Made by a program: the position numbers and the translations under genes. DNA of 64,000 nucleotides from Arenicola marina (lineage: Eukaryota > Annelida > Polychaeta > Arenicolidae), in contig OZ025248.1 in the NCBI GenBank assembly GCA_964019135.1, positions 72,794,119 to 72,858,118 on the forward strand, in the 5' to 3' direction. The notes beneath the pieces were generated by a model that saw nothing but the letters and a program-made list of their open reading frames with translations, had not been told where the DNA came from and made no database searches. Shown piece after piece: positions 30,469 through 55,560 of the stretch (position 1 is its first letter; each line of letters starts with the position of its first letter).

Positions 30469-33400
30469 TTATTCCGGAAGTAAATCGTCTCCAAGTTCCT
30501 CGTCGTCAAAGGCGTCTTCCGCTTGGTCACGGCGTTTGGCGGCCGTCTTGGGGCGCTCGACTTGGGGTCCCAGAGGGTCGGAATACACGTGGTCTGAGGG
30601 GTAAGACAGAGCCGGGTGAGAGTCAGGGGGTCGGAATACACGTGGTCTGAGGGGTAAGACAGAGCCGTGTGACAGTCAGGGGGTCGGAATACACGTGGTC
30701 TGAGGGGTAAGACAGAGCCGGGTGAGAGTCAGGGGGTCGGAATACACGTGGTCTGAAGGGTAAGACAGAGCCAGGGGAGAGTCAGGGGGTCGCAATACAC
30801 GTGGTCTGAGGGGTAAGACAGAGCCGGGTGAGAGTCAGGGGGTCGGAATACACGTGGTCTGAAGGGTAAGACAGAGCCAGGTGAGAGTCAGGGGGTCGCA
30901 ATACACGCGGTCTGAAGGGTAAGACAGAGCCAGGTGAGAGTCAGGGGGTCGCAATACACGTGGTCTGAGGGGTAAGACAGAGCCGGGTGAGAGTCAGGGG
31001 GTCGGAATAGACTGTGGTCTGAGGGGTAAGACAGGGCCAGGTGAGAGTTAATGGGTCGAAATACACGTGGTCTGAGGGGTAAGACAGAGCCGGGTGAGAG
31101 TCGGGGGGTCGGAATACACGTGGTCTGAGGGGTAAGACAGAGCCGGGTGAGAGTCAGGGGGTCGGAATACACGTGGTCTGAGGGGTAAGACAGAGCCGGG
31201 TGAGAGTCAGGGGGTCGGAATACACGTGGTCTGAGGGGTAAGACAGAGCCAGGTGAGAGTCAGGGGTCGGAATACACGTGGTCTGTGGGGTAAGACAGAG
31301 CCGGGTGAGAGTCAGAGGGTCGGACTACACGTGGTCTGGGGGTAAGACAGAGCCGGGTGAGAGTCAGGCGGTCGGAATACACGTGGTCTGAGGGGTAAGA
31401 CAGAGCCGGGTGAGACTCAGGGGTCGGAATACACGTGGTCTGAGGGGTAAGACAGAGCCGGGTGAGAGTCAGGGGGTCGGAATACACGTGGTCTGGGGGG
31501 TAAGACAGAGCCGGGTGAGAGTCAGGCGGTCGGAATACACGTGGTCTGAGGGGTAAGACAGAGCCGGGTGAGAGTCAGGGGGTCGGGATACACGTGGTCT
31601 GTGGGGTAAGACAGAGCCAGGTGAGAGTCAGGGGGTCGGAATACACGTGGTCTGAGGGGTAAGACAGAGCCGGGTGAGAGTCAGGGGGTCGGAATACACG
31701 TGGTCTGAGGGGTAAGACAGCCGGGTGAGTCAGGGGGTCGGAATACACGTGGTCTGAGGGGTAAGACAGAGCCGAGTGAGAGTCAGGGGGTCGGAATACA
31801 CGTGGTCTGTGGGGTAAGACAGAGCCGGGTGAGGGTCAGGGTGTCGGAATACACGTGGTCTGAGGGGTAAGACAGAGCCGGGTGAGAGTCAGAGGGTCGG
31901 ACTACACGTGGTCTGGGGGTAAGACAGAGCCGGGTGAGAGTCAGGCGGTCGGAATACACGTGGTCTGAGGGGTAAGACAGAGCCGGGTGAGACTCAGGGG
32001 TCGGAATACACGTGGTCTGAGGGGTAAGACAGAGCCGGGTGAGAGTCAGGGGGTCGGAATACACGTGGTCTGGGGGGTAAGACAGAGCCGGGTGAGAGTC
32101 AGGCGGTCGGAATACACGTGGTCTGAGGGGTAAGACAGAGCCGGGTGAGAGTCAGGGGGTCGGGATACACGTGGTCTGTGGGGTAAGACAGAGCCAGGTG
32201 AGAGTCAGGGGGTCGGAATACACGTGGTCTGAGGGGTAAGACAGAGCCGGGTGAGAGTCAGGGGGTCGGAATACACGTGGTCTGAGGGGTAAGACAGAGC
32301 CGGGTGAGAGTCAGGGGGTCGGAATACACGTGGTCTGAGGGGTAAGACAGAGCCGAGTGAGAGTCAGGGGGTCGGAATACACGTGGACTGGGGGGTAAGA
32401 CAGAGCCAGGTGAGAGTCAGCGGGTCGGACTACACGTGGTCTGAGGGGTAAGAAAGAGCCGGCTGAGAGTCAGGGGGTCGGACTACACGTGGTCTGAGGG
32501 GTAAGACAGAGCCGGGTGAGAGTCAGGCGGTCGGAATACACGTGGTCTGAGGGGTAAGACAGAGCCGGGTGAGAGTCAGGGGTCGGAATACACGTGGTCT
32601 GACGGGTAAGACAGAGCCGGGTGAGAGTCAGGGGGTCGGAATACACGTGGACTGGGGGGCAAGACAGAGCCGGGTGAGAGTCAGGGGGTCGGAATACACG
32701 TGGTCTGTGGGGTAAGACAGAGCCGGGTGAGAGTCAGGCGGTCGAAATACACGTGGTCTGAGGGGTAAGACAGAGCCGGGTGAGAGTCAGGGGGTCGGAA
32801 TACACGTGGTCTGAGGGGTAAGACAGAGCCGGGTGAGAGTCAGGGGGTCGGAATACACGTGGTCTGAGGGGTAAGACAGAGCCGGGTGAGAGTCAGGGGG
32901 TCGGAATACACGTGGTCTGTGGGGTAAGACAGAGCCGGGTGAGAGTCAGGCGGTCGGAATACACGTGGTCTGTGGGGTAAGACAGAGCCGGGTGAGAGTC
33001 AGGCGGTCGGAATACACGTGGTCTGAGGGGTAAGACAGAGCCGGGTGAGAGTCAGCGGGTCGTAATACACGTGGTCTGAGGGGTAAGACAGAGCCGGGTG
33101 AGAGTCAGGGGGTCGGAATACACGTGGTCTGGGGGGTAAGACAGAGCCGGGTGAGGGTCAGGGTGTCGGAATACACGTGGACTGGGGGGTAAGACAGAGC
33201 CGGGTGAGAGTCAGGAGGTCGGAATACACGTGGTCTGAGGGGTAAGACGGTTTTAGAGCTATTGGTCAGAAACACGTGAAACGGGGAACCAGCTTAGAAT
33301 GCCGACATAGACATGGTTTCAAGGGTATCGACAGAAGGTATCTGTACACGTGATGAAGATCAATGCTATAAACCCTGAAGACGGCATTATCAGCCAACCA

Positions 33401-36400
33401 GAGCGGGACTTACCGGCCTCCTGCTTCTTGCTGACTTGGTACGGCTGGTCGTCCCCGTCGTTGAAGTTGAGCGTCTTGCCCTTGGCGCCGGGTCTGCGCT
33501 GGGCGCTGTTGGTGCGACTTTCACCGTCTGAAGGGGGAGCAGCCATAGGAACGAGAGTGAGGCACAACACGATGGCACATACAGTCTGTAGGTGTTATGC
33601 ACCATAAAACAGGTGTAGTGTAGCCTTAGCAAGTGTCTAATTGTCATTAACAGTTGTTAGTCAATTAAAATAAATTTATGAAGGATCATGCCATTTAATC
33701 CAGACAACTGGTTAAGTATTTTAATACCTGATAGTACAGCCAGAGAGAGTTATAGTACATGTCTCTTTGGACATTGGTGGAAAGACACTAAAATTCGAAA
33801 AACGGTGTCACTCGATCCTTTCACGGACAAATCTAGTTCCCTACAAAATAGTAATGTAAGTGACTAATAGAATATACACATAATAAAGCGACTTTGAATT
33901 AAATCTGTAGTGCAAATGTTAACAATATTGGACAATGTGCTTACTGGATGCGGAGATGTGTGGCCGACAAGAAGTCAGAGACATACTTAGAGGACAGACT
34001 GACAAAGCAGAATACGCTAACAGCTAACATTTGGAGCACCCATGACGCGGACCACGTACACATACACGTGGTACGTACGGTGGGTAGCAAACACGTCTTT
34101 GAAAAAGACTATTTCTACATTTTCTCACAATTAACCGAGACAGCCATGAATTACAGGTATTCTTTTCTATTCAGCATCGAGGACGCATACTATACATGGT
34201 GCAACAAACCAATATGAAACACGGGTCTCTTGCATAACAAAGAAGCACAGTATAAGGAATACTACGTTGTGAGGTCATGCTGACAATTAACGACTAAATA
34301 CGGATGGAAAAGATTTCCTTCGTACAAAGAATTTTTTTATGTCATATCTAGTTACACAGACTGCGCTACACTACAGGACAAAAGATAGATGTGAGTTCTC
34401 TGGTCTCCAGTTACCTGACATTCTACTCCCAGCACTGTTTATCCTGCTGCTCACTGACCACGACATTCACCACAAAGTGAGCCATTACAAGAAACTCTAG
34501 TATCATTTTCAGCTTTACCAATCTTTATCAATGAATTGTTTAGTCAATCAACTCTCAAAGATCGGCATTATTTTTTAAGTTAGAATCGTTAGTAGGCAAA
34601 TATAATACATGTTACATGCGTGAGACAATATACGTCTAGATATGTTAGAGTGCACCTCAGAGAATATAACAATAAACATAACATAGCTATGGTTAGAATT
34701 CAAATATGCCTTTTGTTCACAAAAAAACTCGTCTCAAATTGTATATCCCACAATTATTACTATAAATAAAGTTAAAATTTTCGAGGACGAAGAGCCCGGG
34801 GCTAGAGCAGGGGGCGGAGGGTGGGGTGGGGGGTTACTGACCACTGCCGGCGCTACCCTCCCGCTCAGGCCGCCGCCGTCCGCTGCCCCGCCTCGTGCCG
34901 CTCGTGGCTCGCTGCAAGAGCAAACACACACTGGAGGTCATATGAGATAGGTTGGAGGGTAAACACAAACTGGAGGTCATATGAGATATGTTGGAGGGTA
35001 AACACACACTGGAGGTCATATGAGATATGTTGGAGGGTAAACGCAAACTGGAGGTCATATGAGATATGTTGGAGGGTAAACACACACTGGAGTCCGGTCA
35101 TATGAGACATATCGGAGGGTAAACACACACCGGAGTCCAGTCATATGAGATATGTTGGAGGGTAAACACACACTGGAGTCCGGTCATATGAGATATGTTG
35201 GAGGGTAAACACACACTGGAGTCATATCATATGAGTTATGTTGAAGGGTAAACACACACTGGAGTCCGGTCATATGAGATATGTTGGAGGGTAAACACAC
35301 ACCGGAGTCCAGTCATATGAGATATGTTGGAGGGTAAACACACACTGGAGTCATATCATATGAGATATGTTGAAGGGTAAACACACACTGGAGTCCGGTC
35401 ATATGAGATATGTTGGGAGGGTAAACACACACCGGAGTCCAGTCATATGAGATATGTTGGAGGGTAAACACACACTGGAGTCCAGTCATATGAGATATGT
35501 TGAAGGGTAAACACACACTGGAGTCCAGTCATATGAGATATGTTGGAGGGTAAACACACACTGGAGTCCGGTCATATGAGATATGTTGGGAGGGTAAACA
35601 CACACTGGAGTCCGGTCATATGAGATATGTTAGAGGGTAAACACACACTGGAGTCAGGTCATATGAGATATGTTGGGAGGGTAAACACACACTGGAGTCC
35701 GGTCATATGAGATATGTTGGAAGGTAAACACACACTGGAGTCCGGTCATATGAGATATGTTGGGAGGGTAAACACACACTGGAGTCAGGTCATATGAGAT
35801 ATGTTGGAGGGTAAACACACACTGAAGTCCGGTTACATGAGATATGCTGGAGGGTAAACACACACTGGAGTCAGGTCACACTTTAAATTATCTTTGGTCA
35901 CGCCTGACTTTTCGCTTTAGACTTTACTTATGTCATTAAGTGTGTCAGTTATTTGTTATTAAAATTTAACTTCTGTAACAAGTTGTGCGTTTCTTGTTTT
36001 TGTTCATGAGGATACAAAGATCAGTCCAACATGTCATCTGAATTGCTTCATGAAAATGCTTGATTGCCTGCAATTTTGTTTTTGTTTTGTTTTTGTACCT
36101 TGCCTGAAGGCCAGCCTATAGTACGAAATAAACTATCTATCTTAATGGCTGCAATAACTGCTACCCACCTCCTCCCGCAGTCGCTGTGTCTTCTCGGCTT
36201 TCTTCAGCTTGGTGGCGTAGTCCTGGGCGTCCTTCAGCCCCAGGTCAGTGCACAGGCGCACAAGGAACTTCAGGCCTGCAGCAGAGCGAGGTTACTATAG
36301 CAATGGACGGCCCGACTGCTTCAGGGTATGGGTGGGAGTGGTTGACAAGACAGCGTTTGTAATTCAGGTAACGTAACATAGAGTGAATTTAAAGCAAAAG

Positions 36401-39400
36401 GATGAGTGCTGTATTGATGGTTATTAAACGATTTCCAGAGCGCGTACGACATCTGGCGGTGAAAATATAAACTACCGTTTTGGGTCGCTTGATTGGAACC
36501 ACACACCGGATGGGAGATTTTTCATTGTAAATGACGAGTTGATCCATGCAAAAAATATATAACAATAATCAAGCTCAATTAAGCTGTAAGGTGCATGCGT
36601 CCCAGGCTAGTTACCCCTCTAACTAGTCCAATACATACACTCAATGTTCTCCGGGAACTTCCTGTGGATGGACTTGTAGGTGTCGAGAGACTGTTGGTAG
36701 TTACCGCTGCGGCGGTGACAACTGGCCACCATGAGCTGCCACTTCACCTGGCTCGGCCTGAAACAGTGGCAATGGAACGGTGTAACGACAAGTACCGGTG
36801 ACAACTGGCCACCATGAGCTGCCACTTCACCTGGCTCGGCCTGAAACAGTGGCAATGGAACGGTGTAACGACAAGTACCGGTGACAACTGGCCACCATGA
36901 GCTGCCACTTCACCTGGCTCGGCCTGAAACAGTGGCAATGGAACGGTGTAACGACAAGTACCGGTGACAACTGGCCACCATGAGCGGCCACTTCACCTGG
37001 CTCGGCCTGAAACAGTGGCAACGGAACGGTGTAACGACAAGTACCGGTGACAACTGGCCACCATGAGCTGCCACTTCACCTGGCTCGGCCTGAAACAGTG
37101 GCAATGGAACGGTGTAACGACAAGTACCTGTGACAACTGGCCACCATCAGCTGCCACTTCACCTGGCTTGGCCTGAAACAGTGGCAATGGAACGGTGTAA
37201 CGACAAGTACCTGTGACAACAGGCCACCATGAGCGGCCACTTCACCTGGCCCGGCCTGAAACAGTGGCAACGGAACGGTGTAACGACAAGTACCGGTGAC
37301 AACTGGCCACCATGAGCTGCCACTTCACCTGGCTCGGCCTGAAACAGTGGCAATGGAACGGTGCAACGACAAGTACCGGTGACAACTGGCCACCATCAGC
37401 TGCCACTTCACCTGGCTCGGCCTGAAACAGTGGCAATGGAACGGTGTAACGACAAGTACCGGTGACAACTGGCCACCATGAGCGGCCACTTCACCTGGCT
37501 CGGCCTGAAACAGTGGCAACGGAACGGTGTAACGACAAGTACCGGTGACAACTGGCCACCATGAGCTGCCACTTCACCTGGCTCGGCCTGAAACAGTGGC
37601 AATGGAACGGTGTAACGACAAGTACCTGTGACAACTGGCCACCATCAGCTGCCACTTCACCTGGCTTGGCCTGAAACAGTGGCAATGGAACGGTGTAACG
37701 ACAAGTACCTGTGACAACAGGCCACCATGAGCGGCCACTTCACCTGGCCCGGCCTGAAACAGTGGCAACGGAACGGTGTAACGACAAGTACCGGTGACAA
37801 CTGGCCACCATGAGCTGCCACTTCACCTGGCTCGGCCTGAAACAGTGGCAATGGAACGGTGCAACGACAAGTACCGGTGACAACTGGCCACCATCAGCTG
37901 CCACTTCACCTGGCTCGGCCTGAAACAGTGGCAATGGAACGGTGTAACGACAAGTACCGGTGACAACTGGCCACCATGAGCTGCCACTTCACCTGGCTCG
38001 GCCTGAAACAGTGGCAACGGAACGGTGTAACGACAAGTACCGGTGACAACTGGCCACCATGAGCGGCCACTTCACCTGGCTCGCCCTGAAACAGTGGCAA
38101 CGGAACGGTGTAACGACAAGTACCGGTGACAACTGGCCACCATGAGCGGCCACTTCACCTGGCTCGGCCTGAAACAGTGGCAATGGAACGGTGTAACGAC
38201 AAGTACCGGTGACAACTGGCCACCATGAGCTGCCACTTCACCTGGCTCGGCCTGAAACAGTGGCAATGGAACGGTGTAACGACAAGTACCGGTGACAACT
38301 GGCCACCATGAGCGGCCACTTCACCTGGCTCGGCCTGAAACAGTGGCAATGGAACGGTGTAACGACAAGTACCGGTGACAACTGGCCACCATGAGCTGCC
38401 ACTTCACCTGGCTCGGCCTGAAACAGTGGCAACGGAACGGTGTAACGACAAGTACCGGTGACAACTGGCCACCATGAGCTGCCACTTCACCTGGCTCGGC
38501 CTGAAACAGTGGCAACGGAACGGTGTAACGACAAGTACCGGTGACAACTGGCCACCATGAGCTGCCACTTCACCTGGCTCGGCCTGAAACAGTGGCAATG
38601 GAACGGTGTAACGACAAGTACCGGTGACAACTGGCCACCATGAGCGGCCACTTCACCTGGCTCGGCCTGAAACAGTGGCAACGGAACGGTGTAACGACAA
38701 GTACCGGTGACAACTGGCCACCATGAGCGGCCACTTCACCTGGCTCGGCCTGAAACAGTGGCAATGGAACGGTGTAACGACAACTACCGGTGACAACTGG
38801 CCACCATGAGCTGCCACTTCACCTGGCTCGGCCTGAAACAGTGGCAATGGAACGGTGTAACGACAAGTACCGGTGACAACTGGCCACCATGAGCGGCCAC
38901 TTCACCTGGCTCGGCCTGAAACAGTGGCAATGGAACGGTGTAACGACAAGTACCGGTGACAACTGGCCACCATGAGCGGCCACTTCACCTGGCTCGGCCT
39001 GAAACAGTGGCAATGGAACGGTGTAACGACAAGTACCGGTGACAACTGGCCACCATCAGCTGCCACTTCACCTGGCTCGGCCTGAAACAGTGGCAATGGA
39101 ACGGTGTAACGACAAGTACCGGTGACAACTGGCCACCATGAGCTGCCACTTCACCTGGCTCGGCCTGAAACAGTGGCAATGGAACGGTGTAACGACAAGT
39201 ACCGGTGACAACTGGCCACCATGAGCTGCCACTTCACCTGGCTCGGCCTGAAACAGTGGCAATGGAACGGTGTAACGACAAGTACCGGTGACAACTGGCC
39301 ACCATGAGCTGCCACTTCACCTGGCTCGGCCTGAAACAGTGGCAATGGAACGGTGTAACGACAAGTACCGGTGACAACTGGCCACCATGAGCGGCCACTT

Positions 39401-42400
39401 CACCTGGCTCGGCCTTTAACAATGGCAATGGAACGGTGTAACGACAAGTACCGGTGACAACTGGCCACCATCAGCTGCCACTTCACCTGGCTCGGCCTGA
39501 AACAGTGGCAATGGAACGGTGTAACGACAAGTACCGGTGACAACTGGCCACCATGAGCGGCCACTTCACCTGGCTCGGCCTTTAACAATGGCAATGGAAC
39601 GGTGTAACGACAAGTACCGGTGACAACTGGCCACCATCAGCTGCCACTTCACCTGGCTCGGCCTGAAACAGTGGCAATGGAACGGTGTAACGACAAGTAC
39701 CGGTGACAACTGGCCACCATGAGCGGCCACTTCACCTGGCTCGGCCTGAAACAGTGGCAACGGAACGGTGTAACGACAAGTACCGGTGACAACTGGCCAC
39801 CATGAGCGGCCACTTCACCTGGCTCGGCCTGAAACAGTGGCAATGGAACGGTGTAACGACAAGTACCGGTGACAACTGGCCACCATGAGCTGCCACTTCA
39901 CCTGGCTCGGCCTGAAACAGTGGCAATGGAACGGTGTAACGACAAGTACCGGTGACAACTGGCCACCATGAGCGGCCACTTCACCTGGCTCGGCCTGAAA
40001 CAGTGGCAACGGAACGGTGTAACGACAAGTACCGGTGACAACTGGCCACCATGAGCGGCCACTTCACCTGGCTCGGCCTGAAACAGTGGCAATGGAACGG
40101 TGTAACGACAAGTACCGGTGACAACTGGCCACCATGAGCGGCCACTTCACCTGGCTCGGCCTGAAACAGTGGCAATGGAACGGTGTAACGACAAGTACCG
40201 GTGACAACTGGCCACCATGAGCTGCCACTTCACCTGGCTCGGCCTGAAACAGTGGCAACGGAACGGTGTAACGACAAGTACCGGTGACAACTGGCCACCA
40301 TGAGCTGCCACTTCACCTGGCTCGGCCTGAAACAGTGGCAACGGAACGGTGTAACGACAAGTACCGGTGACAACTGGCCACCATGAGCTGCCACTTCACC
40401 TGGCTCGGCCTGAAACAGTGGCAATGGAAAGGTGTAACGACAAGTACCGGTGACAACTGGCCACCATGAGCGGCCACTTCACCTGGCTCGGCCTGAAACA
40501 GTGGCAACGGAACGGTGTAACGACAAGTACCGGTGACAACTGGCCACCATGAGCGGCCACTTCACCTGGCTCGGCCTGAAACAGTGGCAATGGAACTGTG
40601 TAACGACAACTACCGGTGACAACTGGCCACCATGAGCTGCCACTTCACCTGGCTCGGCCTGAAACAGTGGCAATGGAACGGTGTAACGACAAGTACCGGT
40701 GACAACTGGCCACCATGAGCGGCCACTTCACCTGGCTCGGCCTGAAACAGTGGCAATGGAACGGTGTAACGACAAGTACCGGTGACAACTGGCCACCATG
40801 AGCGGCCACTTCACCTGGCTCGGCCTGAAACAGTGGCAATGGAACGGTGTAACGACAAGTACCGGTGACAACTGGCCACCATCAGCTGCCACTTCACCTG
40901 GCTCGGCCTGAAACAGTGGCAATGGAACGGTGTAACGACAAGTACCGGTGACAACTGGCCACCATGAGCTGCCACTTCACCTGGCTCGGCCTGAAACAGT
41001 GGCAATGGAACGGTGTAACGACAAGTACCGGTGACAACTGGCCACCATGAGCTGCCACTTCACCTGGCTCGGCCTGAAACAGTAGCAATGGAACGGTGTA
41101 ACGACAAGTACCGGTGACAACTGGCCACCATGAGCTGCCACTTCACCTGGCTCGGCCTGAAACAGTGGCAATGGAACGGTGTAACGACAAGTACCGGTGA
41201 CAACTGGCCACCATGAGCGGCCACTTCACCTGGCTCGGCCTTTAACAATGGCAATGGAACGGTGTAACGACAAGTACCGGTGACAACTGGCCACCATCAG
41301 CTGCCACTTCACCTGGCTCGGCCTGAAACAGTGGCAATGGAACGGTGTAACGACAAGTACCGGTGACAACTGGCCACCATGAGCGGCCACTTCACCTGGC
41401 TCGGCCTGAAACAGTGGCAACGGAACGGTGTAACGACAAGTACCGGTGACAACTGGCCACCATGAGCGGCCACTTCACCTGGCTCGGCCTGAAACAGTGG
41501 CAATGGAACGGTGTAACGACAAGTACCGGTGACAACTGGCCACCATGAGCTGCCACTTCACCTGGCTCGGCCTGAAACAGTGGCAATGGAACTGTGTAAC
41601 GACAAGTACCGGTGACAACTGGCCACCATGAGCGGCCACTTCACCTGGCTCGGCCTGAAACAGTGGCAATGGAACGGTGTAACGACAAGTACCGGTGACA
41701 ACTGGCCACCATGAGCGGCCACTTCACCTGGCTCGGCCTGAAACAGTGGCAATGGAACGGTGTAACGACAAGTACCGGTGACAACTGGCCACCATCAGCT
41801 GCCACTTCACCTGGCTCGGCCTGAAACAGTGGCAATGGAACGGTGTAACGACAAGTACCGGTGACAACTGGCCACCATGAGCTGCCACTTCACCTGGCTC
41901 GGCCTGAAACAGTGGCAATGGAACGGTGTAACGACAAGTACCGGTGACAACTGGCCACCATGAGCGGCCACTTCACCTGGCTCGGCCTGAAACAGTGGCA
42001 ATGGAACGGTGTAACGACAAGTACCGGTGACAACTGGACACCATCAGCTGCCACTTCACCTGGCTCGGCCTGAAACAGTGGCAATGGAACGGTGTAACGA
42101 CAAGTACCGGTGACAACTGGCCACCATGAGCGGTCACTTCACCTGGCTCGGCCTTTAACAATGGCAATGGAACGGTGTAACGACAAGTACCGGTGACAAC
42201 TGGCCACCATGAGCTGCCACTTCACCTGGCTCGGCCTGAAACAGTGGCAACGGAACGGTGTAACGACAAGTACCGGTGACAACTGGCCACCATGAGCGGC
42301 CACTTCACCTGGCTCGGCCTGAAACAGTGGCAATGGAACGGTGTAACGACAAGTACCGGTGACAACTGGCCACCATGAGCTGCCACTTCACCTGGCTCGG

Positions 42401-45400
42401 CCTGAAACAGTGGCAACGGAACGGTGTAACGACAAGTACCGGTGACAACTGGCCACCATCAGCTGCCACTTCACCTGGCTCGGCCTGAAACAGTGGCAAT
42501 GGAACGGTGTAACGACAAATACCGGTGACAACTGGCCACCATGAGCGGCCACTTCACCTGGCTCGGCCTGAAACAGTGGCAATGGAACGGTGTAACGACA
42601 AGTACCGGTGACAACTGGCCACCATCAGCTGCCACTTCACCTGGCTCGGCCTGAAACAGTGGCAATGGAACGGTGTAACGACAAGTACCGGTGACAACTG
42701 GCCACCATGAGCTGCCACTTCACTTGGCTCGGCCTGAAACAGTGGCAATGGAACGGTGTAACGACAAGTACCGGTGACAACTGGCCACCATGAGCTGCCA
42801 CTTCACCTGGCTTGGCCTGAAACAGTGGCAATGGAACGGTGTAACGACAAGTACCGGTGACAACTGGCCACCATGAGCTGCCACTTCACCTGGCTCGGCC
42901 TGAAACAGTGGCAATGGAACGGTGTAACGACAAGTACCGGTGACAACTGGCCACCATGAGCTGCCACTTCACCTGGCTTGGCCTGAAACAGTGGCAATGG
43001 AACGGTGTAACGACAAGTACCGGTGACAACTGGCCACCATGAGCTGCCACTTCACCTGGCTTGGCCTGAAACAGTGGCAATGGAACGGTGTAACGACAAG
43101 TACCGGTGACAACTGGCCACCATGAGCTGCCACTTCACCTGGCTTGGCCTGAAACAGTGGCAATGGAACGGTGTAACGACAAGTACCGGTGACAACTGGC
43201 CACCATGAGCTGCCACTTCACCTGGCTCGGCCTGAAACAGTGGCAATGGAACGGTGTAACGACAAGTACCGGTGACAACTGGCCACCATGAGCTGCCACT
43301 TCACCTGGCTTGGCCTGAAACAGTGGCAATGGAACGGTGTAACGACAAGTACCGGTGACAACTGGCCACCATGAGCGGCCACTTCACCTGGCTCGGCCTT
43401 TAACAATGGCAATGGAACGGTGTAACGACAAGTACCGGTGACAACTGGCCACCATCAGCTGCCACTTCACCTGGCTCGGCCTGAAACAGTGGCAATGGAA
43501 CGGTGTAACGACAAGTACCGGTGACAACTGGCCACCATGAGCGGCCACTTCACCTGGCTCGGCCTGAAACAGTGGCAACGGAACGGTGTAACGACAAGTA
43601 CCGGTGACAACTGGCCACCATGAGCGGCCACTTCACCTGGCTCGGCCTGAAACAGTGGCAATGGAACGGTGTAACGACAAGTACCTGTGACAACTGGCCA
43701 CCATGAGCTGCCACTTCATCTGGCTCGGCCTTTAACAATGGCAATGGAACGGTGTAACGACAAGTACCGGTGACAACTGGCCACCATGAGCTGCCACTTC
43801 GCCTGGCTCGGCCTGAAACAGTGGCAATGGAACGGTGTAACGACAAGTACCGGTGACAACTGGCCACCATGAGCGGCCACTTCACCTGGCTCGGCCTGAA
43901 ACAGTGGCAACGGAACGGTGTAACGACAAGTACCGGTGACAACTGGCCACCATGAGCGGCCACTTCACCTGGCTCGGCCTGAAACAGTGGCAATGGAACG
44001 GTGTAACGACAAGTACCTGTGACAACTGGCCACCATGAGCTGCCACTTCACCTGGCTCGGCCTTTAACAATGGCAATGGAACGGTGTAACGACAAGTACC
44101 GGTGACAACTGGCCACCATGAGCTGCCACTTCACCTGGCTCGGCCTGAAACAGTGGCAATGGAACGGTGTAACGACAAGTACCGGTGACAACTGGCCACC
44201 ATGAGCGGCCACTTCACTTGGCTCGGCCTGAAACAGTGGCAACGGAACGGTGTAACGACAAGTACCGGTGACAACTGGCCACCATGAGCGGCCACTTCAC
44301 CTGGCTCGGCCTGAAACAGTGGCAATGGAACGGTGTAACGACAAGTACCTGTGACAACTGGCCACCATGAGCTGCCACTTCACCTGGCTCGGCCTTTAAC
44401 AATGGCAATGGAACGGTGTAACGACAAGTACCGGTGACAACTGGCCACCATGAGCTGCCACTTCACCTGGCTCGGCCTGAAACAATGGCAATGGAACGGT
44501 GTAACGACAAGTACCGGTGACAACTGGCCACCATGAGCGGCCACTTCACCTGGCTCGGCCTGAAACAGTGGCAATGGAACGGTGTAACGACAAGTACCGG
44601 TGACAACTGGCCACCATGAGCTGCCACTTCACCTGGCTCGGCCTGAAACAGTGGCAACGGAACGGTGTAACGACAAGTACCGGTGACAACTGGCCACCAT
44701 GAGCTGCCACTTCACCTGGCTCGGCCTGAAACAGTGGCAATGGAACGGTGTAACGACAAGTACCGGTGACAACTGGCCACCATGAGCTGCCACTTCACCT
44801 GGCTCGGCCTGAAACAGTGGCAACGGAACGGTGTAACGACAAGTACCGGTGACAACTGGCCACCATGAGCTGCCACTTCACCTGGCTCGGCCTGAAACAG
44901 TGGCAACGGAACGGTGTAACGACAAGTACCGGTGACAACTAACTGGCCACCATGAGCGGCCACTTCACCTGGCCCGGCCTGAAACAGTGGCAACGGAACG
45001 GTGTAACGACAAGTACCGGTGACAACTGGCCACCATGAGCTGCCACTTCACCTGGCTCGGCCTGAAACAGTGGCAATGGAACGGTGTAACGACATTACTA
45101 CACTATGTACAGCGGAATGTAGCGCCTTGGACCCTCGGTCATTATCACGTTTGTCGTAACTCCAGCATTAACCCGTATAATACCACTGCGTGATGTAAAT
45201 CCAGCATTACCCCGTATAATACCCCTGCTAATCGTATCTCCAGCATTACCCCGTATAATATCCCTGATTGTCGTAACTCCAGCATTACCCCGTATAATAC
45301 CCCTGCTTGTTGTAAATCCAACATTACCCCGTATAACACCCCTGCTTGCCGTAACTCCAACATTACCCTGTATAATACCCCTGCTTCCTGTAACTCCAGC

Positions 45401-48400
45401 ATTACCCCGTATAATACCCCTTCTTGCCGTAACTCCAACATTATCCCGTATAATACCCCTGCTTGCCGTAACTCCAGCATTACCCCGTATAATACCCTGA
45501 TTGTCGTAACTCCAGCATTACCCCGTATAATACCCCTGCTTGTCGTAACTCCAACATTACCCCGTATAATATCTCTGATTGTCGTAACTCCAGCATTACC
45601 CCGTATAACACCCCTGCTTGTCGTAACTCCAACATTACCCCGTATAATACCCCTGCTTGCCGTAACTCCAGCATTACCCTGTATAATACCCTGATTGTCG
45701 TAACTCCAGCATTACCCCGTGTAATACCCCTGCTTGTCGTAACTCCAGCATTACCCCGTATAATACCCCTGCTTGTCGTAATTCCAGCATTACCCCGTAT
45801 AATACCCCTGCTTGTCGTAACTTCAGCATTACCCCGTATAATACCCCTGCTTGTCGTAACTCCAGCATTACCCCGTATAATACCCCTGCTTGTCGTAACT
45901 CCAGCATTACCCCGTATAATACCTCTGATTGTCGTAACTCCAGCATTACCCCGTATAATACCCCTGCTTGTCGTAACTCCAGCATTACCCCGTATAATAC
46001 CCCGGCTTGTTGTAAATCCAACATTAACCCCGTATAATAACTCTGATTGTCGTAACTCCAGCATTACCCCGTATAACACCCCTGCTTGTCGTAACTCCAG
46101 CATTACCCCGTATAATACCCCTGCTTGTCGTAACTCCAGCATTACCCCGTATAATACCCCTGCTTGTCGTAACTCCAGCATTACCCCGTATAATACCCCT
46201 GCTTGTTGTAAATCCAACAATACCCCGTATACCTCTGATTGTCGTAACTCCAGCATTACCCCGTATAACACCCCTGCTTGTCGTAACTCCAGCATTACCC
46301 CGTATAATACCCCTGCTTGTCGTAACTCCAGCATTACCCCGTATAATACCCCTGCTTGTCGTAACTCCAGCATTACCCCCTATAATACCCCTGCTTGTTG
46401 TAAATCCAACATTACCCCGTATAATACCTCTGATTGTCGTAACTCCAGCATTACCCCGTATAATACCCCTGCTTGTCGTAACTCCAGCATTATCCCGTAT
46501 AATACCCCTGCCTGTCGTAACTCCAGCATTACCCCGTATAATACCCCTGCTTGTCGTAACTCCAGCATTACCCCGTATAATACCCCTGCTTGTCGTAACT
46601 TCAGCATTACCCCGTATAATACCCCTGCTTGTCGTAAATCCAGCATTACCCCGTATAATACCAGTGCTTGTCTTAACTCCAGCATTACCCCGTATAATAC
46701 CCCTGCTTGTCGTAACTCCAGCATTACCCCGTATAACACCCCTGCTTGTCGTAACTCCAGCATTACCCCGTATAATACCCCTGCTTGTCGTAACTCCAGC
46801 ATTACCCCGTATAATACCCCTGCTTGTCGTAACTCCAGCATTACCCCGTATAATACCCCTGCTTGTCGTAACTCCAGTATTACCCCGTATAATACCCCTG
46901 CTTGTCGTAACTCCAGCATTACCCCGTATAATAACCTTGCTTGTCGTAACTCCAGCATTACCCCGTATAATACCCCTGCTTGTCGTAACTCCAGCATTAC
47001 CCCGTATAATACCCCTGCTTGTCGTAACTCCAGCATTACCCCGTATAATACCCCTGCTTGTCGTAACTCCAGCATTACCCCGTATAATAACCTTGCTTGT
47101 CGTAAATCCAGCTGTATATTAACTCTGTTTCTCGTAAATCCAGCTGTATATTAACTCTGTTTCTCGTAAATCCAGCATTATCCTGTATTGGAAGAATATA
47201 GAATCTTTATCCAGCATATCGTTGCTTTCGGCAAACGATCAATCGGTTTTAAACTGGTTACAGAGTGCCGTGCCACGTAAGATTTTGGATAAGAGATTCT
47301 ACTACATACTGAATACATGTTTATCCATTAATATTATCACAAAGAGCTATGGTTAGGGCTAGAGCTGCCTCGCTTGGCCGCACTCACTGTATGATCGAGG
47401 CCCTCTCGAAGTACTGGATGGCCTTCTCGCAGAACTGCGAGTCGATGTAATAGGCACCGAGCCACTCAATCACAGAGATGTTGGACGGGTTGTAGCGATA
47501 AGACTGCAAGAAACATATTGTCACCACATAATTAAAACGGGGTATACAGATCTACCACTGAGAAATACTCGCTGTATGCCTTTATTATAAAATTACAAAC
47601 AGAGCAATTAATACTAAAACAAACTCAACAAAAAGTGTAAAAGTAAACTACTATATAATAGTATTACCGGTACTGTAATGCATATAATACAAACGTAACT
47701 TAATATGCAGTTCCAAAACTACTATAGTACTACTGTAATGGATATAATACAAATGTAACTTAATATGCAGTTGCAAAATAATAACTTGTACCGTCGCTTA
47801 AAATAAACAGTACGTACATGGTTTAAGCCACATCGATGAGTCCATACATAGTTCAGGCTATGTGAGCCTTGATGAGCGGGTCAAGTACAATAGGGGACAC
47901 TTACGTCATAGTGGTACTGGAATGCCTGTGACTTGTCTCCTTCCGAGTCATACATCTCTCCCAGCTTCTGCAGGATGGCTGCGTCCGACGGCACGATGCC
48001 GATCAGCTGCATGAACCTGTCACACACGTGGTACAGACATCAGACACTTGGTACAGACATCAGCCACGTAGTACAGATATCAGACAAGTGGTACAGACAT
48101 CAGACACTTGGTACAGACATCAGACACGTGGTACAGACATCAGACACGTGGTACAGACATCCCCCACGTGGTATAGACACCAGACACGTTGTACATATAT
48201 CAGACACGTGGTATAGACATCCGACACGTGGTATAGACACCAGACACGTGGCACATATATCAGACACGTGGTATAGACATCAGACACGTGGTATGGACAG
48301 AACGCATTAAACATCCGGTCCACGCGAAACGTGTGATACCGACATTGGAATTTAATATTAAACTGTTGCGTTGTCTACGATCAGTGTGCCAAGGTGTATA

Positions 48401-50535
48401 GTCACAGATTAACCAGGAACACTATATATACATACCACTCGATGGCTTGAGACGTATCCCCGATTTGATCATGTCTGAGCGGTTGCTAAGGACACCTTAT
48501 GGCAACAAACAGCTACACAGTTGGACATCAGGTATACATCTGCCAATTACCTTGTGATTTGTTGGATGGACAGTTACCATTTATGAAGGGCACATTAGCA
48601 TTGGTCTAATCAGGTCGAAGGACAATTACCAACACTCGGATTGACACTACTATCCTGGAAGAAGAACATGGGATGCCTATCCAGCACAACATTGGCAGAG
48701 AGGGGCGCGAACCCACGAACCCAGTCAACTCCGGCACGATGGTTGGAGCTTATTGGAGGCGCAGGCACTGGTTGTCAAGGATACAAGTCGGCCACCTGGT
48801 AGATGACTTGGGGACTGTTGCGGAGAATGGCGTGGAGCTTGTAGAACGAGTCCAGTGCATCCTCAAAACGCTTCAGGCGTTTGTTGGACAAACCTATAAT
48901 AACAAAACCAAACCAGTATTATATACTAAATCTATTTTTTTGGCTGGTAAGAAATAGGTTTGTGCGCATATGCTACATGGAAGGTAACAGTTTTTGAAAG
49001 CGCTAGCAAATTAATATCCGTCAATCTATTTGTTCTGCTTATCGGATATATTCTAGATATAATCTACATACCTATATGAATATATATATATATAATTCAT
49101 ATCTCGATCTTAAAAGCCATCAACATGCGGGAGCACAGCAACATTTTTATTGGTCAATATGCAACAATATCTCCCTTTGTCCCTATTTTTTTTAACGGGA
49201 ACTTTCCGCAATTTGTGTGGCGAAGTACGGCTGAGAACATTCCATATCGCGGCGGAAAGCGTGAGTAACCGTTTCCGCTGCACATGTCGTGCATTTAAAT
49301 GTTGCCAAAGGCATGACAGGACTTCTCAGGCAGCTTTATGGAGACACTTACCCAGGTTGTACAGAACCTTGACACAGGGCTCCCAGGCAGCTTTATCGAG
49401 ACACTTACCCAGGTTGTACAGACCCTTAACACAAGGCTCCCAGGCAGCTTTATCGACACACTTACCCAGGTTGTACAGATCCTCGACACAGGGCTGCCCA
49501 GGCAGTTTTATGGAGACACTTACCCAAGTTGTACAGAACCTCGACGCAGGGCTTCCCAGGCAGCTTTATGGAGACACTTACCCAGGTTGTACAGAACCTC
49601 AGCACATGACTCCTCAGACAGCTTTATCGAGACACTTACCCAGGTTGTACAGACCCTCGACACAGGGCTGCCCAGGCAGTTTTACGGAGACACTTACCCA
49701 GGTTGTACAGACCCTCAACACAGGGCTCCCGGGCAGCTTTATCGAGACAGTTGTACAGACCCTCAACACAGGGCTCCCAGGCAGCTTTATCGAGACACTA
49801 CCCCGGCTGTACAGACCCTCGACACAGGGCTGCCCAGGCAGTTTGTTGGAGACACTTACCCAGGTTGTACAGACCCTCAACACAGGGCTCCCAGGCAGCT
49901 TTATCGAGACACTTACCCCGGCTGTACAGACCCTCGACACAGGGCTGCCCAGGCAGCTTTAAGGAGACACTTACCCAGGTTGTACAGACCCTCGACACAG
50001 GACGAGTCGTTCTGTAGAGCCTCCTTGTAAAACTCTCGCGCCTTCTCATGATCTCCTCTCGCAAATAACACATTGCCTTTGTTCACCAACGCTATAGAGT
50101 GTACGAACAGTCTTTATTACATCATGTTCCCTGAACTCTTGTCAACGAAAATAAATCTGTAATAAATTGGAATAACTACCAGGCCATTGGGCCGGGAACC
50201 CAGCAGAAAGGCATTTGGGGTATTATTTTAATACAACACTACCGTGAACTGCCTATTTACAGCCGCATACATATTAGAAGCCGCACCCCAACTTTGGCCT
50301 CAAAACCGGGTTGGCAGGCGCCCAGAACCATTTCCGGAAAACTACATATTATAAGCCGCACCCGGACCTTGGCCTCTCGACCACCCCCCCCCCCCCCCGG
50401 TACATGTCACAGCTGTGAATAAGAAATTGTCTCGATATCTGAAGAGTTGTGATTGCGGACATTACCTGATGGGTTGTACCGGTCAGCGCTGAGAGCAACT
50501 TCTGCATACTTGTCGGCATTAGAGCCTTCTCCTTC
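30469..50535 (-). CDS. IFT88: IFT88, coding exons 13-23 (C-terminal half, residues about 463-827)
   Basis: Exons in gene order are 50466-50535, 49975-50091, 48785-48893, 48436-48474, 47905-48016, 47388-47503, 36639-36757, 36169-36275, 34842-34911, 33414-33527 and 30469-30593 (stop TAA). Recognisable blocks are ADKYAEVALSADRYNPS, ALVNKGNVLFARGDHEKA, FYKLHAILRNSPQVIYQ, DTSQAIEW, EGDKSQAFQYHYD, VIEWLGAYYIDSQF, PSQVKWQLMVASCHRRSGNY, KFPENIECLKFLVRLCTDLG and the end DPLGPQVERPKTAAKRR...EELGDDLLPE. These are the C-terminal TPRs and the conserved IFT88 tail. Exons 21 and 22 encode a basic, Arg/Gly-rich linker that is less conserved. Exon 16 is only 39 nt; its acceptor (CTCAG|ACATG) was chosen because it alone keeps the frame and the residues DQIGDTSQAIEW. 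All seven large tandem arrays of the gene lie in or at the edges of these introns. Confidence 0.95.
30594..33249. repeat. 53-bp minisatellite carrying the last-exon acceptor of IFT88, about 50 units
   Basis: Read on the minus strand each unit contains TGTCTTACCCCTCAG followed by ACCACGTGTATTCCGAC. This is the authentic 3' splice site of the last exon plus its first 17 bases. The remaining spacer ends CCCTGACTCTCACCCGG. The array begins exactly at the true acceptor and fills most of the last intron. Most units contain CACGTG. Variants are single substitutions and 1-6 bp indels; blocks near 31260-31600 and 31860-32160 are nearly identical, so internal segmental duplication has occurred. Confidence 0.97.
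33600..34800 (-). other. IFT88 intron between exons 21 and 22; nothing recognised
   Basis: AT-rich unique sequence with only short open frames and no repeat or RNA seen. Confidence 0.5.
34917..35877. repeat. 44-bp minisatellite (40-45 bp variants), about 22 units
   Basis: The unit reads GGGTAAACACACACTGGAGT followed by CCGGTCATATGAGATATGTTGGAG. The first four units are 40 bp (GGAGGTCATATG) and later ones 44-45 bp (extra TCCG, or GGGAGG for GGAGG). It starts at the edge of the exon-21 acceptor region but carries no exon sequence. Every unit has a CATATG or close variant. Confidence 0.96.
36713..45092. repeat. 83-bp minisatellite carrying the exon-19 acceptor of IFT88, 101 copies
   Basis: On the minus strand each unit has 38 intronic bases starting GTACTTGTCGTTACACCG and ending CACTGTTTCAG, then 45 exon-19 bases starting GCCGAGCCAGGTGAAGTGG and ending AGTTGTCACCG. 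The authentic acceptor is at 36757/36758. The last repeated acceptor is at 45061, so 100 extra copies lie upstream, with one 4-bp insertion near 44938. Frequent variants are CAGCTC/CCGCTC in the exon part, TTGTTAAAG instead of CTGTTTCAG at the acceptor, and ATGGTG/GATGGTG. Larger blocks of 6 and 22 units are themselves repeated. Confidence 0.98.
45151..47175. repeat. 39-bp minisatellite, about 52 units
   Basis: The unit is GTCGTAACTCCAGCATTACC followed by CCGTATAATACCCCTGCTT. It lies in the same IFT88 intron as the 83-bp array, towards exon 18. As 39 is 13 codons, long frames are open on both strands (13-residue unit MLELRQAGVLYGV on the minus strand). They have no start context or splicing that would support a gene. 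Confidence 0.97.
47510..47900 (-). other. IFT88 intron between exons 17 and 18
   Basis: AT-rich unique sequence. A short direct duplication is visible (CTGTAATG.ATATAATACAAA and AACTTAATATGCAGTT, near 47677 and 47731). Confidence 0.6.
48020..48300. repeat. 20-bp minisatellite, about 14 units
   Basis: The unit is GTACAGACATCAGACACGTG with variants (ACACTTG, CCCCCACGTG, GTATAGACACC). It abuts the acceptor of IFT88 exon 17, whose CACGTGTGTGACAG resembles the minus-strand unit, so the array may have grown from the acceptor flank. Confidence 0.95.
49316..49975. repeat. 58-bp minisatellite carrying the exon-14 donor of IFT88, about 11 extra copies
   Basis: On the minus strand each unit repeats the end of exon 14 (CTGTGTCGAGGGTCTGTACA then ACCTGG), the donor GTAAGTGTCTC and about 16 intronic bases (GATAAAGCTGCCTGGG). 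The true donor is at 49974/49975. Downstream copies of the exon/donor block lie about every 58 bp. Most keep a perfect GTAAGTGTC; one lacks the donor through a small deletion (near 49748) and one has it altered (near 49797). Confidence 0.95.
50241..50384. mobile_element. Truncated copy of the MITE-like element at 6929-7833
   Basis: ACCGTGAACTGCCTATTTAC, GCCGCATACATATTAGAAGC, CCATTTCCGGAAAACTACAT and ATTATAAGCCGCACC match the reverse complement of the right end of that element. The copy ends in a poly(C) run at about 50385-50398. It lies in the intron between IFT88 exons 13 and 14. Confidence 0.8.
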
Positions 50536-51451: not shown

Positions 51452-54400
51452 GGGCGTCTCGAGTGCTGGAGATCTCTACCATTGTTTAGTGCTGGACGTC
51501 TCTGCCATTCTTTAGTGTTGGACGTCTCTACCACTGTTTAGTGCTGGACGTCTCTGCCATTATTCAGTGTTGGAGGTCTCTACCATTGTTTAGTGCTGGA
51601 CGTCTCTGCTATTGCTTAGTGCTGGACGTCTGCACCATTGTTTAGTGATGGACGTCTCTACCATTGTTTTGGACGTCTCTACCATTGTTTAGTGCTGAGC
51701 GTCTCTTCCATTATTTAGTGCTGGACGTCTCTGCCATTATTTAGTGTTGGACGTCTCTACCATTGTTTAGTGCTGGACGTCGCTGCTATTGTTTAGTGCT
51801 GGACGTCTCTGCCATTATTTAGTGTTGGACGTCTGCACCATTGTTTAGTGCTGGACGTCTGTACCATTGTTTAATGTTGGACGTCTGCACTATTGTTTAG
51901 CGCTGGACGTCTCTACCATTGTTTAGTGCTGGACATCTCTGCTATTGTTTAGTGCTGGACGTCTGTACCATTGTTTAATGTTGGACGTCTGCACCATTGT
52001 TTAGTGCTGGACGTCTCTACCATTGTTTAGTGCTGGACGTCTGTACCATTGTTTAATGTTGGACGTCTGCACCATTGTTTAGTGCTGGACGTCTCTACCA
52101 TTGTTTAGTGCTGGACATCTCTGCTATTGTTTAGTGCTGGACATCTCTGCTATTGTTTAGTGCTGGACGTCTCTGCCATTGTTTACTGCTGGACGTCTCT
52201 ACCATTGTTTAGTGCTGGACATCTCTGCTATTGTTTAGTGCTGGACGTCTGTACCATTGTTTAATGTTGGACGTCGGCACCATTGTTTAGTGCTGGACGT
52301 CTCTACCATTGCTTAGTGCTGGACATCTCTGCTATTGTTTAGTGCTGGACGTCTCTGCTATGGTTTAGTGCTGGACATCTCTACCATTGTTTACTGCTGG
52401 ACGTCTCTACCATTGCTTAGAGCTGGACATCTCTGCTATTGTTTAGTGCTGGACATCTCTGCTATCGTTTAGTGCTGGACGTCTCTGCCATTATTTAGTG
52501 TTGGACGTCTGTACCATTGTTTAGTGCTGGACGTCTGTACCATTGTTTAGTGCTGAACGTCTCTTCCATTGTTTAGCGTTGGACGTCTCTACCATTGTTT
52601 AGTGCTGGACATCTCTGCCATTATTTAGTGCTGGACGTCTCTGCCATTGTTTAGTGCTGAACGTCTTTTCCATTGTTTAGTGCTGGACGTCTCTACCACT
52701 GTTTAGTGCTGGACGTCACCACCATTGTTTAGTGCTGGACGTCCCTGCCATTGTTTAGTGCTGAACGTCTCTGCCATTGTTAAATGCTGGACGTCTCTAC
52801 CATTGTTTAATGCTGGACGTCACCACCATTGTTTAGTGATTGACGTCTGTACCATTGTTTAGTGATGGACGTCTCTACCATTGTTTAGTGCTGAACGTCT
52901 TTTCCATTGCTTAGTGCTGGGCCTCCCTGCTATTGTTTAGTGCTGGACGTCTCCTCCATCATTTAGTGCTGGACGTCTCTGCCATGTTTTACATCTTTCC
53001 CATTGTTTAGTGCTGGACGTCTTTACCATTGTTCAGTGCTGGACATATCTTCCATTGTTCAGTGCTGGACATCTCTTCCGTTGTTTAATGTTGGGCGTCT
53101 CTACCATTGTTTAATGCTGGACGTCTCTACCACTGTTTAGTGCTGGACGTCACCACCATTGTTTAGTGCTGGACGTCTCTACAATTGTTTAGTGCTAGAC
53201 GTCTCTGCCATTGTTTAGTGCTGGACGTCTCTACCATTGTTTAGTGCTGGACATCTCTTCCATTGTTTAGTGCTGGACGTCTCTACCATTGTTTAGTGCT
53301 GGACGTCTCTGCCATTGTTTAGTGCTGGACGTCTGTACCATTGTTTAGTGCTGGACGTCTCTAGCATTGTTTAATGCTGGACGTATCTGCCATTGTTTAG
53401 TGCTGGACGTCTCTACCATTGTTTAGTGCTTGACGTCTCTGCCATTAATTAGTGTTGGACGTCTGCACCATTGTTTAGTGATGGACATCTCTACCATTGT
53501 TTAGTGCTGGACGTCCCTGCCATTGTTTAGTGCTGGACGTCTCTAGCATTGCTTAGTGCTGGACGTCTCTGCCATTGTTTAGTGCTGGACGTCTCCACCA
53601 TTGTTTAGTGCTGGACGTCTCTGCCATTAATTAGTGTTGGACGTTTGCACCATTGTTTAGTGCTGGACGTCTGTACCATTGTTTAGTGATGGACGTCTCT
53701 ACCATTGTTTAGTGCTGGACGTCTCTTCTATTGTTTAGTGCTGGACGTCTGCACCATTGTTTAGTGCTGGACGTCTCTGCCATTGTTTAGTTTTGGACAT
53801 CTCTGCCCTTGTTTAGTGCTGGACATCTCTACCACTGTTTAGTGCTGGACGTCTCTACCATTGTTTAGTGCTGGACGTCTCTACCATTATTTATTGTTGG
53901 ACGTCTCTACCATTGTTTAGTGCTTGACGTCTGTACCATTGTTTAGTGCTGGACATCTCTGCCATTATTTAGTGTTGGACGTCTCTACCATTGTTTAGTG
54001 CTGGACATCTGTGCCATTATTTAGTGCTGGACGTCTCTGCCATTGTTTAATGCTGGACGTCTCTGCCATTGTTTAGTGCTGGACGTCTCTGCCCTTATTT
54101 AGTGCTTGACGTTTCTACCATTGTTTAGTGCTGGACATCTCTGCCATTATTTAGTGCTGGACGTCTCTGCCATGCTGTACATCTCTCCCATTGTTTAGTG
54201 CTGGACGTCTTTACCATTGTTCAGTGCTGGAAATCTCTTCCATTGTTCAGTGCTGGGTATCTCTTCCATTGTTAAATGCTGGACGTCTCTACCATTGTTT
54301 AATGCTGGACGTCTCTGCCATTGTTTAGTGCTGAACGTCTCTTCCATTGTTTAGTGCTGGACGTCTCTACCACTGTTTAGTGCTGGACGTCACCACCATT

Positions 54401-55560
54401 GTTTAGTGCTGGACGTCCCTGCCATTGTTTAGTGTTGGACGTCTCTGCCATTGTTAAATGCTGGACGTCTCTACCATTGTTTAATGCTGGACGTCTCTGC
54501 CATTGTTTAGTGCTGAACGTCTCTTCCATTGCTTAGTGCTGGACGTCTCTACCACTGTTTAGTGCTGGACGTCACCACCACTGTTTAGTGCTGGACGTCA
54601 CCACCATTGTTTAGTGCTGGACGTCACCACCATTGTTTAGTGCTGGACGTCACCACCATTGTTTAGTGATTGACGTCTCTACCATTGTTTAGTGCTGGAC
54701 GTCTCTTCCATTGTTTAGTGCTGGACGTCTCTAGCATTGTTTAGTGCTGGACATCTCTACCATTGTTTAATGTTGGACGTCTCTACCATTGTTTAGTGCT
54801 GGACGTCTCTTCCATTGTTTAGTGCTGGACGTCTCTAGCATTGTTTAGGGCTGGACATCTCTTCCATTGTTTAGTGCTGGACGTCTCTACCACTGTTTAG
54901 TGCTGGACGTCACCACCATTGTTTAGTGCTGGACATCTCTTCCATTGTTTAGTGCTGGACGTCTCTACCATTGTTCAGTGCTGGACATCTCTTCCATTGT
55001 TCAGTGCTGGACATCTCTTCCATGGTTTCATGTTGGACGTCTCTACCATTGTTTAATGCTGGACGTCTCTTCCATTGTTTAGTGCTGGACGTCTCTGCCA
55101 TTGTTTAGTGCTGGACGTCTCTACCATTGTTTAGTGCTGGACGTCTCTACCATTGTTTAGTGCTGGACGTCTCTGCCATTACTTAGTGTTGGACGTCTGC
55201 ACCATTGTTTAGTGCAGGACGTCTGTACCATTGTTTAGTGATGGACGTCTCTACCATTCTTTAGTGCTGGAGGTCTCTGCCATTGTTTAATGCTGGACGT
55301 CTCTGCCATTATTTAGTGCTTGACGTCTCTGCTATTGTTTAGTGCTGGACGTCTCTGCCATTATTTAGTGTTGGACGTCTGCACCATTGTTTAGTGCTGG
55401 ACGTCTGTACCATTGTTTAGTGCTGGACGTCTCTGCCATTGTTTAGTGCTGGACATCTCTGCCATTGTTTAGTGTTGGACGTCTCTACCATTGTTTAGCG
55501 CTGGACATCTCTGCCATTGTTTAGTGTTGGACGTCTCTACCATTGTTTAGTGCTGAACGT
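51452..55560. repeat. 26-bp minisatellite in IFT88 intron 12, about 158 units
   Basis: The unit is GTTTAGTGCTGGACGTCTCT followed by ACCATT. Most copies differ at one to three positions (ACC/GCC/TCC, TGC/TGT, GACGTC/GACATC), and a few are shortened. Most keep the palindrome GACGTC. The array carries no splice site that I can relate to a flanking exon. Confidence 0.97.

Follow-up and report, generated by a model that had tools for sequence, protein, structure and literature searches.

In a 64,000-nt stretch of the genome of the annelid Arenicola marina (assembly GCA_964019135.1, contig OZ025248.1, positions 72,794,119 to 72,858,118; the whole of this stretch is called the window below), the gene for IFT88 occupies about 63.7 to 30.5 kb of the minus strand, and its intron 18 contains a long tandem array, here called array A, that repeats the junction between this intron and exon 19. 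The peptides of the joined exons match the IFT88 structure 8bd7_A with an E-value of 8.9e-58 (224-residue query). A 241-residue query against the whole 867-Mb assembly, with only the best candidates scored by the tool, gave six matches, all six of them inside this gene, and the locus is present as one copy in the assembly. This single copy, together with the open and homologous exons, rules out that the gene is a pseudogene. Exon 18 (47388..47503, minus strand) ends in ..ATACA|GTGAGT with 47388 as its last base and a donor score of 2.8. Across an intron of about 10.6 kb it is followed by the authentic exon 19 (36639..36757, minus strand), which is 119 nt long, is recognized by its homology to IFT88, and of which the first 45 nt constitute the last copy of the repeat. 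Splice-site scores, here and further on, were calculated with a matrix of human frequencies as generally known.

Array A (36713..45094, minus strand) is a series of 100 tandem 83-bp units, each joining the 45 nt that open exon 19 to 38 nt from the end of the intron (..CTGTTTCAG). Tandem Repeats Finder (TRF) reported a period of 83 bp, 100.9 copies and 97% matches over 36713-45094, and parsing outward from exon 19 yielded, in addition to the authentic one, exactly 100 units, of which 99 measure 83 bp and one 87 bp, confirming the 100 repeats of the exon 19 acceptor and 45 exon bases that an initial annotation of the window had placed in intron 18. The authentic exon 19 boundary (36757) forms one edge of the array and the copies all lie on the intron side. 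In each unit the exon part of 45 nt is delimited by CTGTTTCAG| and CCG|GTACTT, and the intron part of 38 nt starts with GTACTT... and mostly ends in CTGTTTCAG. The donor GT is kept in 100/100 units and an AG closes 100/100 units, the last such AG being exon 19's own acceptor; the acceptor of the first unit, located in the flank, also reads CTGTTTCAG. The phase arithmetic of the annotation (1 base, 14 codons and 2 bases) was right as well: placing a unit between exon 18 and exon 19, whose first base is 36757, would add PSQVKWQLMVASCHR and preserve the frame, and 98 of the 100 units keep the frame and are free of stops, the two exceptions being a unit with a Trp-to-stop change and the 87-bp unit, in which a 4-nt duplication brings a frameshift and a stop. 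A 47-base junction pattern has 51 exact matches genome-wide, all inside array A, and on a variant map, inspected by eye, blocks of 4-5 units recur as blocks. Since assemblies are error-prone at tandem arrays, the copy number might be an assembly artefact; this is extremely unlikely in view of the long contig (C1, 77 Mb), the ordered and mostly non-periodic variant map of array A and the many similar arrays elsewhere in the genome.

Minisatellite-like tandem duplications of exon-intron boundaries have been termed 'mirages' in two amphioxus globin genes, BflGb6 and BflGb9, in a report that also cites Adh3 and further loci; in the sections of that report drawn on here, the BflGb6 mirage has 6 and 3 units in two haplotypes, reverse transcription PCR (RT-PCR) suggests that regular splicing goes on unaffected, and mirages are proposed, in a model, as a route to intron gain (PMC3087553). 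Array A has the hallmarks of this class, as each unit combines coding and intronic sequence across an authentic junction, splice signals are present, and turnover is visible as homogenisation and block duplication. Judged by its sequence, array A is very probably such a mirage, a minisatellite that straddles the intron 18/exon 19 boundary and has grown on the intron side to 100 units, with exon 18 normally joined to the authentic exon 19. A seed unit would have happened to straddle this boundary, the array would have grown by unequal exchange or slippage, and array A would be removed together with intron 18 when exon 18 is joined to exon 19 at its authentic acceptor.

What the splice machinery would meet in the array can be described site by site. 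The unit acceptor scores 3.67, equal to the authentic exon 19 acceptor, and the '101 equivalent acceptors' of the annotation stand as a description of the sequence, except at 8 of the 100 unit ends, where a weakened acceptor (TTAAAG) scores 0.66. The GTACTT donor had been called weak, and in its usual context CCG|GTACTT it indeed scores -1.0, with 1.21 for the CAG|GTACTT of seven units and -0.07 for the authentic exon 19 donor AGT|GTATGT. Of the donor-like sites in a unit, the highest score (3.6) belongs to CAG|GTGAAG, which lies 10 bases into the exon part and is out of frame. Were splicing to enter at a unit acceptor and ignore the donor of that unit, a stop would follow at 94 nt in 95 units, sooner in 4 and at 343 nt in one. 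Splicing of adjacent units would leave 38-nt introns, which are regarded as too short for normal splicing, so that the claim that any number of units could be spliced in was too strong. Recursive splicing at the units was ruled out, as they read CAG|GCC and not AG|GT, and a stable hairpin hiding the unit acceptor, considered on the basis of a single 113-nt fold of -28.2 kcal/mol without shuffled control, is not used as evidence.

The equality of the acceptors and the occurrence of a stop within 94 nt in 99/100 units, when an acceptor is used without its donor, would suit a regulatory decoy field, in which 100 acceptors slow or divert the splicing of intron 18 and intron detention or nonsense-mediated decay tunes the IFT88 level. 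Decoy exons reportedly promote intron detention. A decoy exon and OGT intron detention are the subject of one study (PMC12017769). Boundary arrays are, however, found at many exons of unrelated genes in this genome (see below), and a mutational by-product therefore fits better than gene-specific control, which leaves a decoy field quite unlikely.

The annotation had also suggested array A as a possible source of IFT88 isoforms of variable length. On this view the array would be a reservoir of in-frame cassette exons, of which single or non-adjacent units would lengthen IFT88 in 15-residue steps. Such a reservoir would agree with the phase compatibility of the units, with the GT and AG kept in all of them, with the open frame in 98/100 and with the seven units whose donor scores above that of exon 19, but little weight attaches to the constancy of AG and GT, because most columns of the array are invariant. 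Variant types among the 99 full-length units number 12 in the 45-nt exon part and 10 in the 38-nt intron part, which is an equal density in both parts, and 4 of the 12 exon variant types are synonymous against 23% expected under a transition-weighted model (P=0.30 for four or more); no coding constraint on the exon part relative to the intron part was found in these 99 units. A Gln-to-Pro change inside a TPR helix is carried by 39/99 units, the stronger donor of each unit is out of frame, and 15 residues do not make up a TPR repeat, which is 34 residues long. In 20,000 random draws (random start, random frame) from a pool of 98 distinct units of the survey arrays treated below, moreover, 19.5% contained a GT in frame and free of stops with a score of -1 or higher, and one was seen in 3/7 acceptor-side arrays (IFT88 A, IFT88 B, L117, L118, L119, L120 and L139), so that the phase match of array A is unremarkable. 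With these findings, the short introns between adjacent units and the absence of a usable donor from the units of a second IFT88 array, cassette exons are highly unlikely, and a functional reading of the array A units is mostly not supported.

This second array, array B (30571..33248, minus strand; 53-bp unit, 50.7 copies), is a putative acceptor-side mirage as well and extends across the 3' splice site of the last IFT88 exon (CCCCTCAG|ACCACGTGTATTCCGACCCYCTG), its unit repeating some 23 exon bases along with the acceptor CCCCTCAG. The authentic last exon has 30593 as its first base; its coding part (30469..30593, minus strand) ends in ..HVYSDPLGPQVERPKTAAKRRDQAEDAFDDEELGDDLLPE and then a stop, and we take it to belong to IFT88 from its likeness to the vertebrate C-terminus. 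All 45 intervals parsed by fuzzy match (45/45) end in AG, and the best GT of the unit scores -2.5, hence the lack of a usable donor. When four decoy acceptors were read on, three led to a stop after 7, 7 and 25 residues, and the last array B unit ran without a stop to the end of the stretch read but entered the last exon in another frame. As array B persists with some 50 copies and no usable donor, persistence does not need cassette-ready units. A third array, array C (49327..50001, minus strand; 57/58-bp unit, 11.9 copies by TRF; ..ACAACCTGG|GTAAGTGT), appears to be a donor-side mirage seeded by the 3' end of the authentic exon ending in ..SSCVEGLYNLG (49975..50091, minus strand), and provides 11 donor sites, the authentic one included. 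IFT88 thus holds two acceptor-side boundary arrays and one donor-side array, a balance opposite to that found in the survey described next.

Exons of three protein families only were surveyed, with the loci picked mostly by score: myosin head PF00063 (50/77 matches), dynein AAA_8 PF12780 (50/60) and DHC_N2 PF08393 (36/78), giving 136/215 in total. Repeats of at least 1.9 copies were taken as arrays and counted as boundary arrays when they included at least 10 coding nt; the flank covered was no more than about 165-200 nt at the last 76 loci (L072-L147), so that long units may be missed there and most arrays are cut. At the 136 exons the script found 21 donor-side and 3 acceptor-side boundary arrays, and on the acceptor side another two arrays include 9 coding nt. 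By eye the donor-side count becomes 22, with L036 dropped (overrun of the hidden Markov model), L056 and L102 added (true donor further out) and L055 set aside (overrun). The first 76 exons gave 14 donor-side arrays (L036 dropped) and no acceptor-side ones, and all 3 acceptor-side arrays as well as both 9-nt ones come from the next 60 exons; the idea that acceptor-side arrays are absent elsewhere (14 v 0) was weakened accordingly to 21 v 3, and the idea that IFT88 is unique in having boundary arrays is ruled out by the survey. A two-sided binomial test of this donor-side excess (21 v 3) gave P=0.0003. At least 3 copies are present, within the stretch read, in 13/22 donor-side and 4/5 acceptor-side arrays, most of which are cut by the stretch end. 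Arrays cover 26% of 60 large survey loci, and at the 136 loci together they take up 19% of the 10 intron bases that directly follow donors, against 6% of the 10 that directly precede acceptors. Donor-crossing minisatellites occur at about one in six of the surveyed myosin and dynein exons (L012-L147), some with at least 20 copies (L019, L057 and L061), and at L117 and L122 a 68/70-bp array apparently takes up a whole intron of a dynein gene, as far as the acceptor of the exon that follows.

Arrays that span exon boundaries are routine in this genome, and fewer of them lie on the acceptor side than on the donor side. The 21:3 excess on the donor side suggests a higher cost for additional acceptors upstream than for additional donors downstream, and mutational bias could be an alternative cause of the skew. 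Donor-side arrays may be better tolerated in that the authentic donor is transcribed first and adjoins the exon, whereas acceptor-side decoys would precede the authentic acceptor.

A number of observations speak against the reading of array A as a mirage that is simply removed with its intron. Its acceptor score of 3.67 exceeds the median of 2.7 in the first 76 survey exons, and the decoy acceptors are transcribed before the authentic one. The seven CAG|GTACTT donors outscore the authentic exon 19 donor (1.21 against -0.07) and the acceptors score as the authentic one does, which makes occasional inclusion of units plausible. One natural exon of IFT88 measures 39 nt (48474-48436), so that a length of 45 nt is not in itself too short for an exon, and since acceptor-side arrays are the rarer (3 v 21), the acceptor side may carry a cost that needs to be offset in IFT88. 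The 45-nt pseudo-exons are nevertheless probably passed over because they are short, have no good donor and lie only 38 nt apart, and exon definition would favour the 119-nt exon. That a low, copy-number-dependent share of IFT88 mRNAs contains non-adjacent 45-nt units and yields a protein length series in 15-residue steps, as a case of ongoing exon birth in a genome where most swept-in sites are skipped, is very unlikely.

Compared with the amphioxus mirages, as they appear in the sections drawn on, array A agrees in that its units span an exon-intron boundary (theirs on the acceptor side in BflGb6 or the donor side in BflGb9) and in that many units with AG/GT signals are homogenised by turnover. 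It differs in its host, an annelid and not a cephalochordate, in copy number (100 and about 50 copies in arrays A and B versus 6 and 3 units) and in the occurrence of boundary arrays at roughly one in six surveyed exons; the undisturbed splicing in amphioxus is backed by RT-PCR, whereas the IFT88 arrays are described here from DNA sequence. Limited likewise to the portions considered of each publication, further relatives can be named. Boundary tandem repeats in lancelet PGBD5 and TnC reportedly leave regular splicing undisturbed, and those of PGBD5 are few, imperfect copies, unlike array A (PMC3902484). In human segmentally duplicated genes, internal tandem repeats are, like array A, minisatellites at exon-intron boundaries, and they change gene structure; unlike it, they have on average about 4 copies of 30 bp, and splicing is altered in some transcripts (PMC2812944). 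Intron gain by tandem duplication in the potato RdRp gene resembles array A in that a duplicated boundary gives ready splice signals, and differs in being a duplication with a demonstrated new intron as against 100 copies here (PMC4974935). An annelid gene with internally repeated exon and intron sequence that its authors did not see in mRNA is similar to the IFT88 case, but in the part of that account considered a tandem unit spanning a splice site, as in array A, is not described. Among the matches listed in our literature searches (annelid intron minisatellites, mirages, chromosome-level annelid genomes) there was no report of boundary-spanning arrays in annelids.

Array A is a very large new case of the known mirage class, and the wider interest lies in the frequency of mirages in this genome. 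In the parts of the literature considered, mirages are on record for a few amphioxus genes and in low copy numbers; those found here, in another phylum, run to as many as 100 copies. They constitute a natural large-scale experiment on how the spliceosome tells the authentic site from numerous near-identical ones around it, and also on whether boundary arrays give rise to exons or introns. With splice sites so often drawn into minisatellites, a large share of genes in this worm may offer the spliceosome several to tens of near-identical sites, and gene predictors may call many false exons in genomes rich in boundary arrays.

Other arrays in IFT88 stop short of an exon or touch none. A 43-bp array (34922..35878, minus strand) ends 10 bases before an exon with first base 34911, and a 20-bp array (48020..48293, minus strand) ends 3 bases before an exon with first base 48016. 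Two big intronic minisatellites, at 45151-47112 (39 bp x 50) and 51462-55560 (26 bp x 158), touch no exon found. A model of chance overlap of seeds with boundaries in IFT88 gave P=0.023 for two boundary-spanning seeds among six arrays; this value is not relied on, because the list of boundaries was hand-made, incomplete and in places some bases off (34917 vs 34911) and array B had not yet been recognized. The natural 39-nt exon of IFT88 (HDQIGDTSQAIEW) is preceded by an intron with a U12-like donor, GTATCCTTGA, after 48785, and judged by the consensus as generally known, the sequence at 48436-48785 of the window likely includes a minor-spliceosome intron. Outside IFT88, a 37-bp x 39 array at 2846-4296 lies immediately downstream of an exon that by eye resembles ankyrin repeats. 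On the mitochondrial contig (C762, 15,942 bp), the genes that could be named (genetic code 5; by eye from the open frames except cox1) all lie on one strand in the order nad4L-nad4-...-nad1-nad3-nad2-cox1-cox2-...-cox3-nad6-cob-atp6-nad5, which is the common annelid order.

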